Source of the DNA: Bacteroidales bacterium
Lineage (GTDB): Bacteria > Bacteroidota > Bacteroidia > Bacteroidales > P3
NCBI GenBank assembly: GCA_017960475.1
Contig: JAGCZH010000008.1
Coordinates: forward strand, 1-64,000
Length of the DNA stretch: 64,000 bases
Direction of reading: 5' to 3'
The notes under the pieces were generated by a model. It did no database searches, had not been told where the DNA came from, and was given only the letters and a program-made list of their open reading frames with translations. Positions within the stretch are counted from its first letter, which is position 1, and the number at the start of each line of letters is the position of its first letter. Shown here piece after piece: positions 4,428 through 62,152 of the stretch. The position numbers and the translations under genes were made by a program.

Positions 4428-7265
4428 TTAATTCTTTATCAGTTTGTAGTCAATCATCTGGTATATGTCGGGCATTGTATTCTCGTATCCGCCCTGAGGT
4501 GTCGATTGTTTTAGTTTGAATGGAAACAGCATTTGAGAAGGAGCGTCGAACGATTGAGGATTTTGCCAGAAAGCAGCACCTTTCTGCCACAAGGCTGAGG
4601 CAAAAAACAACATGATGTCATGACCTGTGCCAGCATAGAGAGGATTGGGCTCAGTATGGAATTTCTCCTTATAGGTGTCGACAAACTGACGGTGCTTGGT
4701 GTTGCCGGCATAGTCGAGATAGCCTATAGTTGTCAAGGTATAGTTGACATACTGCAACTGGTCGTATTCGATGTTGGGGACATCCTTGATGTAATTCAAC
4801 AAAGTGAACACTGTAGGCACATCACTTTTCATTTGAGCCAATTTTGAAAGAAGAGACCTCATAAACAACGAATTCTGCTTAGGACCCTGATCATAGACAC
4901 TGACAATAACATTATTGTGAGTCGTTTTCAATGCCGAAACAAGTTTGTTGCTGGCATTCCAGTCAAACAATGTATATTTGATATCCTTACGGGCATCGAG
5001 TTGTTTTACAAATTCGTTACGATAAATGCTCTCCTCATAATTAGGATTTTTGCTGTTGGAATGGACGATATAGAGATGACCGTCCTTGTATTTCCTTGCC
5101 ACACGGTCCAAAATGCCCTCCACATTGCCTTCGACAGAGGGCATACATTTAACCACATAAGGATTGTCGGCGACAACTTCGACACGCGAGGAGAATGGAT
5201 TGATGACAAATACCTGATGTTTCTTAGCCAACTGAGCAAGCTTGTTGAAAGGTTTTTTTACCAGCAGCGCTATGATTATGTCAGAATTCTCCATTTGATG
5301 AGAATAGAAAGCCTCGACGACATCCTCGTCCTTTTCTTTGTCGGAGGGCAAGTCCACAACATTGAGAACAATATCTATTCCCTGAGCCTGAAGTTGGTCA
5401 AGAGCCATGAGAATGCCCTCGTAGAATTGTACAAACTCAAAGACCTTATATTCCTTTTTGCCACGCTGCTCAATATCGAATTTTGATGTGGATATCTCGT
5501 CTATTTTATCCAAATTGAGAGGCATGATGATAGAAACAAAGATTTTGTTTTTATCCTGACGGTCACGGATTTGGAATTTAAAATCAGAGGTAGTGTCACT
5601 CTCCAAGAATTTCGCCTTACGAATTGGGAACAAATCAATTTGCTCCTCAAATGGATACGGATTGACGACGACCTTCTGTTTTGAATCAGTGAGCGGAGTT
5701 GGGGTATCGGGAAGTGAGGATGGGAGAGCGGAGAGTATATCCGAAGCAGAGGCCGTGGGGTTTTCTGTCGTTTTCTCTGGCGCTGTTGAAGCTGCGGTTT
5801 TTGACAACTCTGTATCTTTGACAGCAACATCCTTTTGTGATTGACCTTCCACTGGTTTTATCGCCAATGAATCAGCAGCCTTACGATCAGCCTCCTTCTT
5901 GGCCTTACGTTCCGCCCTTTTCTCTGATCTACTCTTTTCTGAAGACTTATCGGAAGTCTTATCAGCAACCTGTATGATATTATTATCAACAGATTGCTCA
6001 TTCCCCTTCACTGAAATTGCATCGGATGGTTTCTCAGCAGGCTTCTCATCATGCTTAGGCGCAGCCTTGTCAGCTGACTTTGCTGAAGTAGAGTCCTTTT
6101 TCGAGACATCCGACTTTGCTTTTTCATATAAAGGCTTTGGTGCAAGCGTGTCTGCCGACTTTTTCTCTTTCTCTTTCTTAGCCTTCTTTTCTGCCTTGCT
6201 CTTATCGGCAAGCTTTTCCACTGGCTTTTCGGTGGCCTTAGCCTTTGGTTCTTCCGGTGCGGGTTTTTCCGTCGCTTTGGCGGCAGGCTTTTCAGCTGGC
6301 TTTTCGGTAACCTTAGCCTTTGTCTCTTCAGGTGCTGGCTTTTCCGTCGCTTTGGCGGCAGGCTTTTCAGCTGGTTTTTCGGTAACCTTAGCCTTTGTCT
6401 CTTCCGATGCAGGCTTTTCCGTCACCTTGGTGGCAGGCTTTTCAGCTGGCTTTTCGGAGGCCTTAGCCTTTGGCTCTTCAGGTGCCGGCTTTTCCATCAC
6501 CTTGGCGGCAGGCTTTTCAGCTGGCTTTTCGGTGGCTTTAGCCTTTGGCTCTTCAGGTGCGGGCTTTTCCGTCACTTTTGCGGCAGACTTTTCCACTGGC
6601 TTCTCGGTGGTCTTAGCCTTTGTCTCTTCCATAACTGGCTTTTCCGTCACCTTGGCGGCTGGCTTTTCCACTGGCTTTTCGGTAGTCTTTGTCTTTGTCT
6701 CTTCCGGTGCTTTTTTATCTACTGCTTTGGCGGCTGGCTTTTCCGCTGTCTTCTCAGTGGTCTTTACCTTTGGCTCTTCGGGGGCCGGTTTAAAATTGGG
6801 GTCTCGAGGCGGTATCTTTATCATCTGCCCCGCTTTCAACTGCTCGGTTTTCAGTTCTGGATTAGCCTCGACAATTTTCTCTATAGGGACACCATACAAT
6901 TTGGACAAGCCGTAAAGAGTCTGGCCCGGTTCAATTCGAATATAATGGACTGTGGTTTCAGGGGCTACAGCGGATTTGGCTCTGGCAGAAACAGCAGCAA
7001 CACTGTTGCTGTTCTTAGGGAGCCATACAGTGTCGCCAACTTTCATCAAATGAATGTCTGTTTTGATTATTGCGTCGTAATATTTCAATCCATAAGCTCT
7101 TGATATGGAGAATAGCGTTTGACCCTGACGCACAACATGGACATAATACTCCTTACCATTCTTCTTCTGCATTATGTCGGAGACTTCTATGGCAACCGTC
7201 TGCGTGCCTTGCGCAGAAACGATTCCAAAAAAGAGAACCATGAAAACTAATAGCAGACGTTTCAT
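4428..7265 (-). CDS. LysM-repeat protein with periplasmic-binding-protein-like C-terminus
   Basis: A 945-residue exported protein. Residues 1-19 form a signal peptide ending SAQ. Two LysM modules follow (about 41-84, YYVHVVRQGQTLFSIS; about 107-152, HYIRIEPGQTLYGLS), which should bind peptidoglycan. Residues 169-343 are seven 25-residue Lys/Pro/Glu/Ala repeats, followed by more Lys/Glu/Ser-rich linker to about 560. The last ~380 residues (from about FPIRKAKFLES) resemble the type 1 periplasmic binding fold of amino-acid ABC receptors (KIFVSIIMPLNLD, DIIIALLVKKP, GTGHDIMLFF). Such LysM/receptor-like fusions recur in Bacteroidota, and a role in envelope sensing or murein-associated function is only inferred. 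No ABC permease is nearby. It lies between guaA and lpxC on the same strand. Confidence 0.85.
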   Translation of the reverse strand: MKRLLLVFMVLFFGIVSAQGTQTVAIEVSDIMQKKNGKEYYVHVVRQGQTLFSISRAYGLKYYDAIIKTDIHLMKVGDTVWLPKNSNSVAAVSARAKSAVAPETTVHYIRIEPGQTLYGLSKLYGVPIEKIVEANPELKTEQLKAGQMIKIPPRDPNFKPAPEEPKVKTTEKTAEKPAAKAVDKKAPEETKTKTTEKPVEKPAAKVTEKPVMEETKAKTTEKPVEKSAAKVTEKPAPEEPKAKATEKPAEKPAAKVMEKPAPEEPKAKASEKPAEKPATKVTEKPASEETKAKVTEKPAEKPAAKATEKPAPEETKAKVTEKPAEKPAAKATEKPAPEEPKAKATEKPVEKLADKSKAEKKAKKEKEKKSADTLAPKPLYEKAKSDVSKKDSTSAKSADKAAPKHDEKPAEKPSDAISVKGNEQSVDNNIIQVADKTSDKSSEKSRSEKRAERKAKKEADRKAADSLAIKPVEGQSQKDVAVKDTELSKTAASTAPEKTTENPTASASDILSALPSSLPDTPTPLTDSKQKVVVNPYPFEEQIDLFPIRKAKFLESDTTSDFKFQIRDRQDKNKIFVSIIMPLNLDKIDEISTSKFDIEQRGKKEYKVFEFVQFYEGILMALDQLQAQGIDIVLNVVDLPSDKEKDEDVVEAFYSHQMENSDIIIALLVKKPFNKLAQLAKKHQVFVINPFSSRVEVVADNPYVVKCMPSVEGNVEGILDRVARKYKDGHLYIVHSNSKNPNYEESIYRNEFVKQLDARKDIKYTLFDWNASNKLVSALKTTHNNVIVSVYDQGPKQNSLFMRSLLSKLAQMKSDVPTVFTLLNYIKDVPNIEYDQLQYVNYTLTTIGYLDYAGNTKHRQFVDTYKEKFHTEPNPLYAGTGHDIMLFFASALWQKGAAFWQNPQSFDAPSQMLFPFKLKQSTPQGGYENTMPDIYQMIDYKLIKN
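6237..6761 (-). repeat. Seven tandem 75-bp coding repeats
   Basis: Seven in-frame 25-codon units with consensus TEKPAEKPAAKVTEKPAPEE plus TKAK, followed by a partial eighth. Units differ at several bases, so this is an older, diverged array. It forms the spacer between the murein-binding LysM pair and the receptor-like domain, and its length may vary between strains. Confidence 0.9.
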
Positions 7266-51422: not shown

Positions 51423-51545
51423 AGCCCTGTAGGCACGACACTTCGATTATCAGATCTGTGTCGCCCCTACAGGGCTCGGTGGTTATGTCCTTTTGATACC
51501 GTGGGCTCACGTCCACGGCTGTGTTATATCGCCCTTTCAGGGCTC
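51423..51545. repeat. Dispersed palindromic repeat, copy 1
   Basis: Left arm AGCCCTGTAGGCACGACAC (51423-51441) pairs with 51458-51476 at 17 of 19 positions. A TGGGCTCACGTCCACGGCTG-type middle and a third arm GCCCTTTCAGGGCT (51531-51544) follow. The same ~123-bp arrangement recurs at 61924-62047. It lies between a PHP phosphatase and a lipoprotein gene and is non-coding. Confidence 0.85.
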
Positions 51546-57253: not shown

Positions 57254-57805
57254 ATGCCTGCAAGAATTAGATTGCAACGTCATGGTAAAAAGAATCAACC
57301 TTTTTATCACATCGTCGTAGCGGATGGTCGTGCACCTCGCGATGGAAAATTTGTCGAGAAGTTAGGCACTTACAACCCTATGACCAACCCCGCCAGCATC
57401 GAACTCAATGAAGAGAGAGCCTGCCAATGGCTTAAAAACGGTGCCGAGCCCAGTCCTACCTGCCGTCGAATCCTCTCCTACAAGGGTGTCCTTCTGAAAC
57501 GCCACCTCCAGATTGGTGTTGAGAAAGGCGCTATCAGCCAGGAACAAGCCGACGTGAAATACAATGAGTGGAAACAGGCCAAGGACGCAAAAATCGCCAA
57601 TAAAGTTAGCGAGTTGAACAACAACGCTCGCAACGAGGCAAAATCCCGCCTTGAGGCTGAGAAGAAAGCCAACGAGACCAAAGCCGCCGCTATCGACGCT
57701 AAACGTCGCGCCGCCGCTGAGGCCGAGGCAGCAGCCAAGGCTGAGGCCACTGCCGAAAACACTGAGAACGAAGCCCCCGCAGCTGAAGAAAACACTGAAG
57801 CATAA
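57254..57805 (+). CDS. rpsP: Ribosomal protein bS16 with long acidic/Ala-rich C-terminal extension
   Basis: A 183-residue S16 of the small ribosomal subunit. The N-terminal ~85 residues are the canonical domain (PARIRLQRHGKKNQPFYHIV, GKFVEKLGTYNP). About 95 further residues are a helical, Lys/Ala/Glu-rich extension ending NEAPAAEENTEA; long tails on S16 are usual in Bacteroidota, while E. coli S16 has about 80 residues. It has its own strong promoter and terminator; rimM follows in the usual order. Confidence 0.97.
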   Translation: MPARIRLQRHGKKNQPFYHIVVADGRAPRDGKFVEKLGTYNPMTNPASIELNEERACQWLKNGAEPSPTCRRILSYKGVLLKRHLQIGVEKGAISQEQADVKYNEWKQAKDAKIANKVSELNNNARNEAKSRLEAEKKANETKAAAIDAKRRAAAEAEAAAKAEATAENTENEAPAAEENTEA

Positions 57806-58605: not shown

Positions 58606-60501
58606 ATGGAAGAAGATATCATAAATCCTATCACCAACGATTACGGGGACGACAGCATTGTGCATCTTGAAGACATGGTGCACATCAGGCTGCGTCCTGG
58701 CATGTATATAGGCAAGCTGGGTGACGGCTCGTCGCACGACGATGGTATTTACGTCCTTATCAAAGAGGTCATCGACAATGCCATCGATGAGTTCACTTCA
58801 GGCTACGGAAAACGTATCAATGTGAAGATTGACTTCGGCGAGCGTCGGGTTAGCATACGTGATTTCGGACGCGGCATTCCTCTGGGCAAAATGATTGACG
58901 CCGTGAGCAAACTGAACACCGGCGCCAAATACGACAGCAAAGTGTTTCAGAAATCGGTGGGTCTCAACGGTGTCGGCACCAAGGCAGTCAATGCGCTCAG
59001 CAGCTATTTCAAGGTCATGGCTGTGCGCGACGGCAAATGCCGTATCGCAGAATTCTCTGAAGGCAACCTCACCAACGACAGCGGAATCATAGAATGCAAA
59101 GAGGAAAACGGCACTCTCGTCGAATTCATCCCCGACCAAACCCTTTTCGGCAACTACCATTTCGTCAACGAATATGTGGAACGTCGTGTGTGGAACTACG
59201 CCTACCTTAACCGAGGCCTCACCCTTTACTATAACGACAAACGCTACTATTCCAAAAACGGTCTCCTCGACCTTCTGGAGCACAACATGGATGGCGAAGG
59301 TCTCTACCCCGTGGTCCACATCAAAGAGGATGACTTTGAATGTGCCTTCACTCATGTCAACGGTCAAAGTAGCGACTACTACTATAGCTTTGTCAATGGA
59401 CAGCATACCACCGAGGGCGGCACACACCAAAGCGCCTTCCGCGAAGGCTTCGCCCGTGTGGTTCGCGAGTTCTATAAAAAAGACTATGAGCCTTCCGACA
59501 TACGCCAAGGACTGGTATGCGCCTTGTGTGTACGCATTCAGGAACCTGTCTTCGAAGCCCAGACAAAAACCAAGCTGGGTTCTACCCATCTGGCGCCAAA
59601 CAAAGCCGACGGCACCAACGACAGTCCCTTCCTCAAGACCTATGTCCTAGACATCCTAAAACGTCATCTCGACAACTATCTCCACATCCACTCCGAAACC
59701 GCCGACGCCCTCCTCGCCAAGATAACCCAGAACGAGAAGGAACGCAAAGAAATCGCCGGCATAAAAAAAGAGGCCAAGGCCGCCAACAAGAAAGCCAGCC
59801 TCAACAACCGCAAGCTGCGCGACTGCCACATTCACTACAACAGCAACAACGCACGCCGATTGGAGACCACCATTTTCATCACCGAGGGAGACTCGGCAAG
59901 CGGCAGCATAACCAAAAGCCGCGACGTGGCGACACAAGCGGTATTCAGCCTGCGAGGCAAACCCAAAAACACATACAATATCAGCAAGGTCGAAGTGTAT
60001 AAAAACGAGGAGCTGAACCTGCTTCATAATGCCCTCGATATCGACGACGGCATGGATGGCCTCCGCTACAACAACGTTGTCATCGCCACCGATGCCGATG
60101 TCGACGGTATGCACATACGCCTTCTGCTGCTCACTTTCTTCCTCCGCTTCTACCCCGACCTTATACGCACGGGGCATGTATACATTCTGCAGACACCGCT
60201 CTTCAGAGTCCGCAACAAACAAAAAACTCACTATTGCTACACCGACGAGGAACGCATAGAGGCCATCCACAACACTCCTAACGCGGAAATAACCCGATTC
60301 AAAGGTCTCGGCGAGATTTCTCCCGACGAATTCAAAAATTTCATCGGCAAAGACATGCGCCTCGACCCCGTACTGCTTCACAAAGACTTCGACACCAAAG
60401 GGGTTCTGAGTTTCTATATGGGTGAGAACACCATGGAACGACGCGAGTTTATCATGGACAACCTACGTGTTGAAGACGACGAAAGTATCGTTGTCGCGTA
60501 A
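58606..60501 (+). CDS. parE: DNA topoisomerase IV subunit B
   Basis: A 631-residue type IIA topoisomerase ATPase subunit. The GHKL domain has [19 protein letters not shown] and [14 protein letters not shown]. The transducer carries QTKTKLG. The TOPRIM domain has EGDSASGS (from E427) and [10 protein letters not shown]. The total length and lack of a GyrB insertion fit the ParE/GyrB-like protein typical of Bacteroidota. It would partner a parC product encoded elsewhere to decatenate chromosomes; the next gene is not parC. Confidence 0.92.
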
Positions 60502-60516: not shown

Positions 60517-60547
60517 TTTGCCCATTAATATAATCTTGCTATACTTG
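60517..60547 (+). promoter_or_regulatory. Promoter of the H1-like-tail protein gene
   Basis: TTTG (60517-60520), 19 bp, TATACTTG (60540-60547), one mismatch to consensus, 16 bp before the ATG at 60564. Confidence 0.65.
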
Positions 60548-60563: not shown

Positions 60564-61835
60564 ATGATAGACCATAGAAATCGCAAGAAAAAACTGATAA
60601 TCAGCTACAAAAACTTACCCGATAATATACGGGAACTCTTTAAAGACGCTTATCCCGACGGATATAAGGACTATCTGCAGAAGACCATTAAACCTAATGG
60701 CGAACCAATCTTCGTTGTTCCTCTGGAGACCGACGACACCTCATACATGGTTAAATTCGACGTCAAAATTGACACCGGACTTGTTGAAGAGGATCTCGAC
60801 AAGGATCTCTATGGCGGAGACGAAGAGCAGAGCGAAGGGGAATTCGCACCCCTGTCGGAAGCCATCGACAAAGAAGAGGGCAACGAGCACGCTGTAGGCA
60901 AAATGCGCCATGGCGCACTGGAAGAGGTCTTCGAGGGTCTCCCCGAAGACAAAAAGGAATTCGAGATGGCAAACCAAGACATCGAGGATGAATATGGCGA
61001 TCGACCCGACGAAGACGACGACATTGACAGCTATATTGACGGAGAGAAAGATGGCGACGATGATATCGAACCCGACGACGACGAGTTGCTTGACATCGAG
61101 GCCCTTCTTAATGAAGCCGACTCCGGCGAAGGTATGTTACGCGAGAACAACCCTCCCGAGGAGAAACGTGGCCGCAAACGCAAATCGCTCAATCCCGACA
61201 TCGAAGCTGTCAAAGCTGTCGGAAGCGAGGCGAAAGCATTGAAAAAGAGCTCTAAAGCAAAAACAACCGTAAAAATCAAAAAAAGCGAAATATCATCGAC
61301 AACAAAGGTAAAAGCCGTCAAAGTGACCAAGGCTGTTAAAGAGCCCAAAGCTGTCAAGGTGACCAAGGCTATCAAAGAGCCTAAAGCCGTCAAGGTAACT
61401 AAGGCTGTTAAAGAACCCAAAGCCGTCAAGGTGACTAAGGCTGTTAAAGAACCCAAAGCCGTCAAAGTGACCAAGGCTGTTAAAGAGCCCAAAGCCGTCA
61501 AAGTGACCAAGGCTGTCAAAGAGCCCAAAGCCGTCAAGGTGACCAAGGCTGTCAAAGAGCCCAAAGCCGTTAAGGTGACCAAGGCTGTCAAAGAGCCCAA
61601 AGCCGTCAAGATGACCAAGGCTGTCAAAGAGCCCAAAGCCGTTAAGGTGACAAAGGCTGTTAAAGAGACCAAAGCCGTCAAAGTGACCAAGGCTGTCAAA
61701 GAGCCCAAAGCCGTCAAGGTGACCAAGGCTGTCAAAGAACCCAAAATGTCAACCAAGAAAGTGACCTACACCAAGGCCGTAAAAGCATCCAAGGCGACAA
61801 CCAAGGCGACAAAAACGACGAAATCCAAGAAATAA
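60564..61835 (+). CDS. Conserved Bacteroidota protein with acidic middle and histone-H1-like Lys-rich repeat tail
   Basis: A 423-residue cytoplasmic protein of three parts. Residues 1-80 form a compact domain (LIISYKNLPDNIRELFKDAY, GEPIFVVPLETDDTSYMVKF) that resembles an unnamed Bacteroidota-conserved family. Residues 80-215 are very acidic (DDDIDSYIDG, DDDIEPDDDELL). Residues 216-423 are basic: twelve 12-residue repeats of KAVKVTKAVKEP (250-393) ending in KATKTTKSKK. The tail resembles histone H1 or HC2-like DNA-condensing tails, so nucleic-acid binding is inferred. Its gene follows parE by 62 bp with its own promoter. Confidence 0.75.
   Translation: MIDHRNRKKKLIISYKNLPDNIRELFKDAYPDGYKDYLQKTIKPNGEPIFVVPLETDDTSYMVKFDVKIDTGLVEEDLDKDLYGGDEEQSEGEFAPLSEAIDKEEGNEHAVGKMRHGALEEVFEGLPEDKKEFEMANQDIEDEYGDRPDEDDDIDSYIDGEKDGDDDIEPDDDELLDIEALLNEADSGEGMLRENNPPEEKRGRKRKSLNPDIEAVKAVGSEAKALKKSSKAKTTVKIKKSEISSTTKVKAVKVTKAVKEPKAVKVTKAIKEPKAVKVTKAVKEPKAVKVTKAVKEPKAVKVTKAVKEPKAVKVTKAVKEPKAVKVTKAVKEPKAVKVTKAVKEPKAVKMTKAVKEPKAVKVTKAVKETKAVKVTKAVKEPKAVKVTKAVKEPKMSTKKVTYTKAVKASKATTKATKTTKSKK
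61311..61742 (+). repeat. Twelve tandem 36-bp coding repeats
   Basis: Twelve in-frame 12-codon units encoding KAVKVTKAVKEP with few substitutions (AIKEP in unit 2, KMT in unit 9, KET in unit 10). Third-position differences between units show mild divergence. Copy number is likely to vary between strains. Confidence 0.95.
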
Positions 61836-62152
61836 ACAAAAAGGGACATCCCAAGAGTCCCCAACGGGGACGGTATATATTAGCCGTAGGCATCAGGCCA
61901 CGGATTTGAAACAAAATAATCTGAGCCCTGAAGGGGCGACATACTGACTATCTGTTCTGTGCCGCCCCTTCAGGGCTCAGTGTTTCTGTCATCTTTGTAC
62001 CATGGGCTCACGCCCACGACTGTATTATGTCACCCTTACAGGGTTTTAGCCTCAGCCCACGCAGACAGCATCTCAGTCGGGTTCACACCCACGACTTTTT
62101 TCGTCTTTTGTGGCGTTTGAAATATCCTTGTGTTTATTCTCGCGGAGATGCA
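61836..62152. other. Intergenic region with dispersed repeat
   Basis: Between the H1-like gene (+) and nadD (-), convergent. It carries the second full copy of the palindromic repeat (61924-62047) and a partial piece around 62082-62098 (GGTTCACACCCACGAC). No gene is supported here. Confidence 0.75.
61924..62047. repeat. Dispersed palindromic repeat, copy 2
   Basis: Arms AGCCCTGAAGGGGCG (61924-61938) and 61963-61977 pair perfectly over 15 bp. They are followed by TGGGCTCACGCCCACGACTG and a third arm-like CCTTACAGGG. It matches copy 1 at 51423-51545 in order and spacing, with scattered substitutions. Confidence 0.85.

Follow-up and report, generated by a model that had tools for sequence, protein, structure and literature searches.

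A core-plus-acidic protein family of Bacteroidia with a recently expanded histone H1-like tail in a Bacteroidales bacterium

A gene for a protein composed of a conserved core, a highly acidic stretch and a basic histone H1-like tail was analysed in a 64,000-nucleotide stretch of DNA from a Bacteroidales bacterium (the whole stretch is called the window). The tail contains an array of twelve units that arose by recent in-frame tandem expansion, and such tails are not peculiar to one species, since they are present at the C- or N-terminal end in several genera. By analogy with CarD of Myxococcus xanthus, we propose with moderate confidence that the protein may work as a three-part adaptor with a docking core, an acidic spacer and an exchangeable DNA-binding tail.

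Gene anatomy and the 36-bp repeat array

The gene begins 62 bp after the end of parE (60501), and the following features were assigned to it and to its upstream region.

60564..61835, + strand, whole gene, 423 amino acids (core, acidic stretch and basic tail), ATG start, closed open reading frame
60585..60776, + strand, conserved core domain, residues 8-71, from the family profile and a structure model of residues 5-75
60780..61163, + strand, acidic, probably disordered stretch, residues 73-200, net charge -43 by charge count
61164..61184, + strand, KRGRKRK motif with which the basic tail begins, similar to an AT-hook except for the missing P, read from the sequence
61164..61832, + strand, basic histone H1-like tail, residues 201-423, net charge +59, rich in K, V, A and T, from charge and composition
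61311..61742, + strand, tandem array of twelve in-frame 36-bp units, KAVKVTKAVKEP, from repeat finding and protein-level units
60517..60547, + strand, promoter-like site TTTG-N19-TATACTTG, from a pattern search with the Bacteroidota consensus
58606..60501, + strand, parE-like topoisomerase subunit B gene, upstream neighbour outside the protein

Residues 1-72, which include the core, have a net charge of +1, and 72 lysines were counted in residues 200-423, where the tail shows the H1-like composition of the AlgP and PhaF kind (a long, K-rich repeat tail). No signal-peptide-like start was seen by eye, and residues 1-195 gave a single match in the genome from which the window was taken. An earlier note, made from the same DNA, had described a conserved N-terminal domain, a highly acidic middle and an H1-like tail with twelve repeats, and all three were borne out by the core at residues of about 8-71, the charges of the two following segments and the twelve 36-bp units. 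Matches of the tail to Pfam MgtE_N and to NCBIfam EntB and IcmW, located on low-complexity sequence and below the curated cut-offs, were rejected as composition artefacts.

One array was reported in the gene by Tandem Repeats Finder (61311-61745, period 36, 12.1 copies, 91% matches, score 709); the unit number is approximate, since the assembly consists of 40 contigs and the reads may have been shorter than the array. At the protein level nine of the twelve units are exactly KAVKVTKAVKEP, and three have one substitution each. Codons differing from the consensus unit numbered 23 between units (20 silent and 3 replacement), and the amino-acid sequence of the units therefore seems to have been kept. 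The nearest relative found (locus L032) showed 89.6% DNA identity over 2.7 kb counted from the parE start, and the first 109 residues of the two proteins are 98% identical, but the L032 protein consists of 291 residues and holds only a degenerate trace of the array unit. Because the twelve-unit array is absent from so similar a relative, its expansion is recent. A search for further copies of the tail elsewhere in the genome returned the array itself only.

A second charged, low-complexity array was observed elsewhere in the window, in a 945-residue protein (4428-7265, - strand) with an export signal and LysM-like repeats recognised by eye; it is a 75-bp tandem array (6206-6779) encoding K/E/P/A-rich repeats of the APEETKAKVTEKPAEKPAAKATEKP type.

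The core family and the distribution of its tails

Of 149 genomes sampled from the family of the window organism, 138 contained the core by sequence search. At the order level 88 of 247 genomes matched by profile (89 by a single-sequence query), and across the phylum the core was found in 49 of 345 genomes, 47 of which belong to the same class as the window. A few order-level genomes (G190, G292, G294 and G374) gave two core matches each; the two copies of G294 differ, L291 having a basic C-terminal tail and L262 being scored as tail-less. The core passed no curated Pfam cut-off and had no convincing match in NCBIfam. A structure model of residues 5-75 (mean pLDDT 80.7) predicted the order strand-helix-strand-strand-strand, and a Foldseek search of the PDB with either of two models gave no match at E up to 0.001. 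Fold comparison by VIA returned chiefly chains of the glyoxalase/VOC type, with Z no higher than 3.3, a range that unrelated folds also give; these searches rule out no family, and the best match of the core model (Z 3.3, rmsd 3.8, 50 aligned) was to a family other than PepSY_like. PepSY_like proteins (PF11396), which are usually exported, matched 9 of 27 core sequences weakly (best E 0.0015), but the window core scored 14.3 bits and did not reach the gathering cut-off of 28.3. Comparison of the core profile with 21 PepSY_like domains aligned 38 columns at E 0.00059 with a probability of only 29%, and a PepSY_like ancestry of the core is suggestive only.

For the classification of tails, 234 distinct homologues were scored by a script for a basic tail and for an acidic stretch, defined as 30 residues with a net charge of -8 or lower after the core. 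The own-genus set was obtained by collapsing 30 + 54 + 20 loci into 79 distinct proteins, the relatives in the set of 54 coming mostly from metagenomes of rumen or gut, and the remaining genera of the family are represented by 40 loci, a subset of those matched; L297 was dropped (no profile match), and three weak order-level matches were left out. The acidic stretch followed the core in 231 of the 234 homologues, the remaining three being without a basic tail, and every protein scored with a basic tail, at either end, also has the acidic stretch.

In the window's own genus (g1) the C-terminal basic tail passed the threshold in 77 of 79 distinct proteins, and it was also found in g5 (4/4) and g2 (3/4, the fourth cut by a contig end; the L179 sequence ends at a contig end). 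Tails on the N-terminal side were detected in g4 (2/8), g6 (4/4), g9 (2/2) and g11 (5/6), and all ten proteins from g3, g8, g10 and g12 were tail-less. Seven loci (L210, L211 and L213-L217) have long N-terminal H1-like tails before the same core and acidic end, of up to 312 residues (L214), a length that depends on the start codon chosen (155 or 317 residues for L211). Of 88 distinct order-level proteins, four have C-terminal tails (L273, L280, L291 and L292), one has a true N-terminal tail (L093) and 82 were scored as tail-less; the script also called L096 N-tailed, which was rejected by eye because a nearer start codon gives a plain core, and two proteins counted under the order, L088 and L089, come from g3, a genus within the family. 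The tail is also seen in four further families of the order, and all 29 class-level homologues were scored as tail-less. Outside g1 and two neighbouring genera the homologues therefore mostly consist of core and acidic stretch only, so that the N-terminal family does not always carry a basic tail, as the earlier note had proposed to check. Homologues lacking the basic tail, which that note had named as a refutation of its reading, thus exist, and DNA binding by the tail cannot be the only job of the family.

The best tree, which has 71 columns, is weakly resolved and includes only 24 own-genus and 12 class-level rows, needs at least nine changes of tail state; well-supported branches alone force only two changes for C-terminal and one for N-terminal tails, and such counts cannot separate gain from loss. 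Two tails that scored weakly (L056 and L023) were assigned the C-terminal state by hand, L023 not being among the tree rows. Since the widespread form is tail-less, the simplest reading, which is not proven, is repeated gain of the basic tail, now at one end of the core and now at the other; independent gains are supported by this weakly resolved tree.

Own-genus tails were of several types, namely KAVKVTKAVKEP, KKAAPAKKAAP-type repeats, AKPAAKKETAKP units, KPTKP-type stretches, irregular K/A/T sequence and short ends with KKGRPRK. The units KKAAPAKKAAP, AKPAAKKETAKP, KPTKPA and KAVKVTKAVKEP vary between relatives while the basic charge stays. The motif [KR]GRP[KR] occurred in 14 of 79 distinct own-genus tails (0.04 expected when each tail was shuffled) and [KR]RGR[KR] in 17 of 79 (0.025 expected), counts that ignore shared ancestry and represent related sequences rather than independent origins; both motifs were absent from all eight tails of g2 and g5. 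The window's own tail has KRGRKRK and lacks GRP, including RGRP. Pfam AT_hook (PF02178) did not match the window protein up to E 1, and among ten relatives scanned it matched one, below the cut-off, at E 0.83. In a subgroup of the genus, AT-hook-like KKGRPRK motifs stand where the others have the H1-like repeat.

These data bear on two explanations in which the tail would have no dedicated nucleic-acid ligand. The tail could be a tolerated slippage product of low complexity, with no particular ligand and with a unit number that has no function, as might be expected from a recent array missing in L032, from the 32 to 342 residues that follow the most acidic stretch in the genus, and from the tail ends of L058, L080 and L083, which look frame-shifted or cut by eye. 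This is improbable in view of the 20 silent to 3 replacement changes between units, the basic charge that 77 of 79 own-genus proteins keep above the threshold although their units turn over, and the tails carried at the opposite end by other lineages. The three irregular tail ends themselves suggest that the repeats slipped or acquired small indels, whether in the living cells or during assembly. Alternatively, the acidic and basic stretches might bind each other, giving self-shielding or condensates. Charges of -43 and +59 in one chain and the acidic stretch present in all basic-tailed proteins would fit such a polyampholyte; nevertheless, many tail-less homologues keep the acidic stretch, which points to another role for it, and AT-hook-like motifs would be needless, so that we regard mutual binding as unlikely.

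Gene neighbourhood and promoter-like site

The position of parE was recorded only for proteins with 700 bp or more of upstream sequence, and parE was sought within 900 bp upstream. It was found before 54 of 61 own-genus proteins without the GRP motif versus 1 of 15 with GRP, and before all homologues counted in g2 (4/4) and g5 (4/4). No parE was present within this distance in the other genera of the family (0/30), the order (0/84) or the class (0/29). The earlier note had asked whether the gene stays near parE and had derived a role in chromosome organisation from this position; the adjacency proved to be confined to g1, g2 and g5 and to be mostly missing with GRP, and the proposed role is left without wider comparative support. 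An adjacency seen in three genera only, and seldom in their AT-hook-like subgroup, provides no argument for a topoisomerase role. A partnership with topoisomerase IV in chromosome organisation would accord with the 54 of 61 own-genus cases without GRP and the eight of eight in g2 and g5, but it is very improbable given the 14 of 15 own-genus cases with GRP and the 30 of 30 (other genera), 84 of 84 (order) and 29 of 29 (class) in which upstream parE is missing, together with the promoter-like site located between parE and the gene.

That site, at 60517-60547, is in line with the promoter evidence from which the earlier note concluded that the gene can be transcribed alone. Of the 79 distinct upstream regions from the genus, 28 contain its loose form, TTTG-N18-22-TANN[TC]TTG, against 0.08 expected when mononucleotides are shuffled; the strict form with TAnnTTTG, which follows the Bacteroidota consensus and which the window lacks, was detected in only 1 of 79 (0.04 expected).

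Other neighbours varied by lineage, and among the neighbourhoods examined there was no family-wide partner and no neighbour pointing to transcription or chromosome work. TPR models were the commonest Pfam matches of 71 order-level neighbouring ORFs, and none of them occurred in more than 7 (among 25 of the 62 families listed). A gene for a CHU_C type IX secretion protein lies upstream in four of four picked loci (genera g3, g4, g10 and g12), and UvrA domains were found in the last of ten neighbours picked for recurring size and place. In five of five chosen class-level loci (L120, L121, L134, L138 and L144) a deoxyhypusine-synthase-like gene (PF01916) directly precedes the homologue, which could link the highly acidic class-level version to polyamine metabolism.

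Within the window, a gene for ribosomal protein S16 (57254-57805, + strand) encodes a C-terminal Ala/Lys/Glu-rich extension of about 110 residues, and its product matched NCBIfam NF011094 above the cut-off. Inverted copies of AGCCCTGAAGGGGCG lie at 61924-61977, downstream of the gene, and at 51462-51544; four matches with up to two mismatches were counted in the window (0.11 expected), and the 13-base core of the sequence was found at 15 places in the genome with up to one mismatch (reversed control, 0). Judging from these copies, AGCCCTGAAGGGGCG looks like a dispersed palindromic repeat element.

Lysine-rich disordered tails can bind any polyanion, and the tail might accordingly grip RNA or ribosomes instead of DNA, with the core as a translation- or RNA-linked factor. 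The tail itself suits this reading, as do the deoxyhypusine-synthase-like gene in the five chosen class-level loci and the S16 gene near the window gene, but the neighbours differ between lineages, so that neither guides strongly, and relatives have AT-hook-like motifs in the same place, which favour AT-rich DNA according to published accounts. We consider binding to RNA unlikely.

Proposed mode of action and relation to known proteins

In the three-part adaptor that we prefer, the core (beta-alpha-beta-beta-beta) would dock on a protein partner, and the acidic stretch would be a spacer that tunes the basic tail by competing with nucleic acid. The acidic part may also shield the tail, as the earlier note suggested. 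The disordered basic tail would serve as an anchor on the nucleoid, binding DNA through its charge and largely regardless of sequence, and in the own-genus subgroup AT-hook-like motifs would stand in its place. Tails would have been added to the core on several occasions, now in front of it and now behind it, and the present twelve units are a recent in-frame tandem expansion. Most likely, the freshly expanded tail of the window copy ties the protein to DNA. Binding of nucleic acid by the tail, already suggested in the earlier note, is the best inference, and is helped by the AT-hook-like motifs in the same place in relatives. No published experiments on any family member were found in the literature searched.

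The closest analogue is CarD, in which, according to published descriptions (PMC4374960, PMC8156234), a folded N-terminal module is followed by a highly acidic segment and a disordered basic DNA-binding tail; the order is the same here, and the tail would be expected to bind DNA. The same sources state that HMGA-like and H1-like tails of CarD are interchangeable by experiment and that CarD is still functional when its tail is swapped for histone H1 or the H1 tail (PMC8156234, PMC4374960); the window genus has tails of both kinds. CarD differs in its core, with which the present core has no sequence match: CarD_CdnL_TRCF (PF02559) was absent from the Pfam matches of the window protein (E up to 1) and of 27 core sequences (E up to 0.1). 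A link to RNA polymerase is not shown for the window family, and in this family the tail can also be N-terminal.

AlgP and PhaF of Pseudomonas resemble the window protein in their long Lys/Ala/Pro-rich repeat tails of H1-like make-up, and KPAA-repeat peptides of AlgP bind DNA, as described in passages of PMC9239181. Those passages give AlgP a putatively alpha-helical N-terminal domain, in which it differs from the window protein, make no mention of a long acidic stretch, and report that the long KPAA-repeat H1-like tail is required for even spacing of polyphosphate granules (PMC9239181). A storage-granule binder with such a tail would be an obvious counterpart, as AlgP associates with polyphosphate granules (PMC9239181), but polyphosphate kinase 1 (TIGR03705) was unmatched in the window genome, which differs in this from the AlgP setting. 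The genome is estimated to be 98.29% complete, and the same search, which covered ppk1 only, gave matches in 7 of 14 controls. Given this lack of a ppk1 match, a polyphosphate role is extremely improbable.

Mycobacterial HupB has HU as its folded part and actinobacterial TopA has topoisomerase I, and neither of these was among the Pfam matches of the window core. The likeness is that both are DNA-binding proteins with special tails, eukaryotic-like in HupB and with lysine repeats in TopA (PMC5676037, PMC7398561). Literature searched on Bacteroidetes and bacterial H1-like, lysine-rich, AT-hook and nucleoid proteins contained no description of the window family. To the extent searched, a folded module with an exchangeable H1/HMGA-like tail is a known kind of protein, and the core, the lineage and the swap of the tail between ends are new.

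The analysis warns that function is not to be read from a neighbour such as parE. If the proposal is true, one protein family would have repeatedly gained H1-like and AT-hook-like tails on either end of its core within one bacterial family and order, the interchangeability of such tails as anchors, suggested by the CarD experiments, would become testable, and a family that neither Pfam nor NCBIfam models convincingly would have a clear hypothesis. A broader, tentative reading is that a core-plus-acidic protein of Bacteroidia may have served as a base to which tails resembling those of chromatin proteins, either H1-like or AT-hook-like, were repeatedly added in evolution, at one end or the other, so that a free adaptor became bound to the nucleoid. 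If so, the family would be a natural replay experiment on the origin of disordered DNA-binding tails, and would extend the bacterial parallels to eukaryotic H1 and HMGA beyond Myxobacteria and Pseudomonas.
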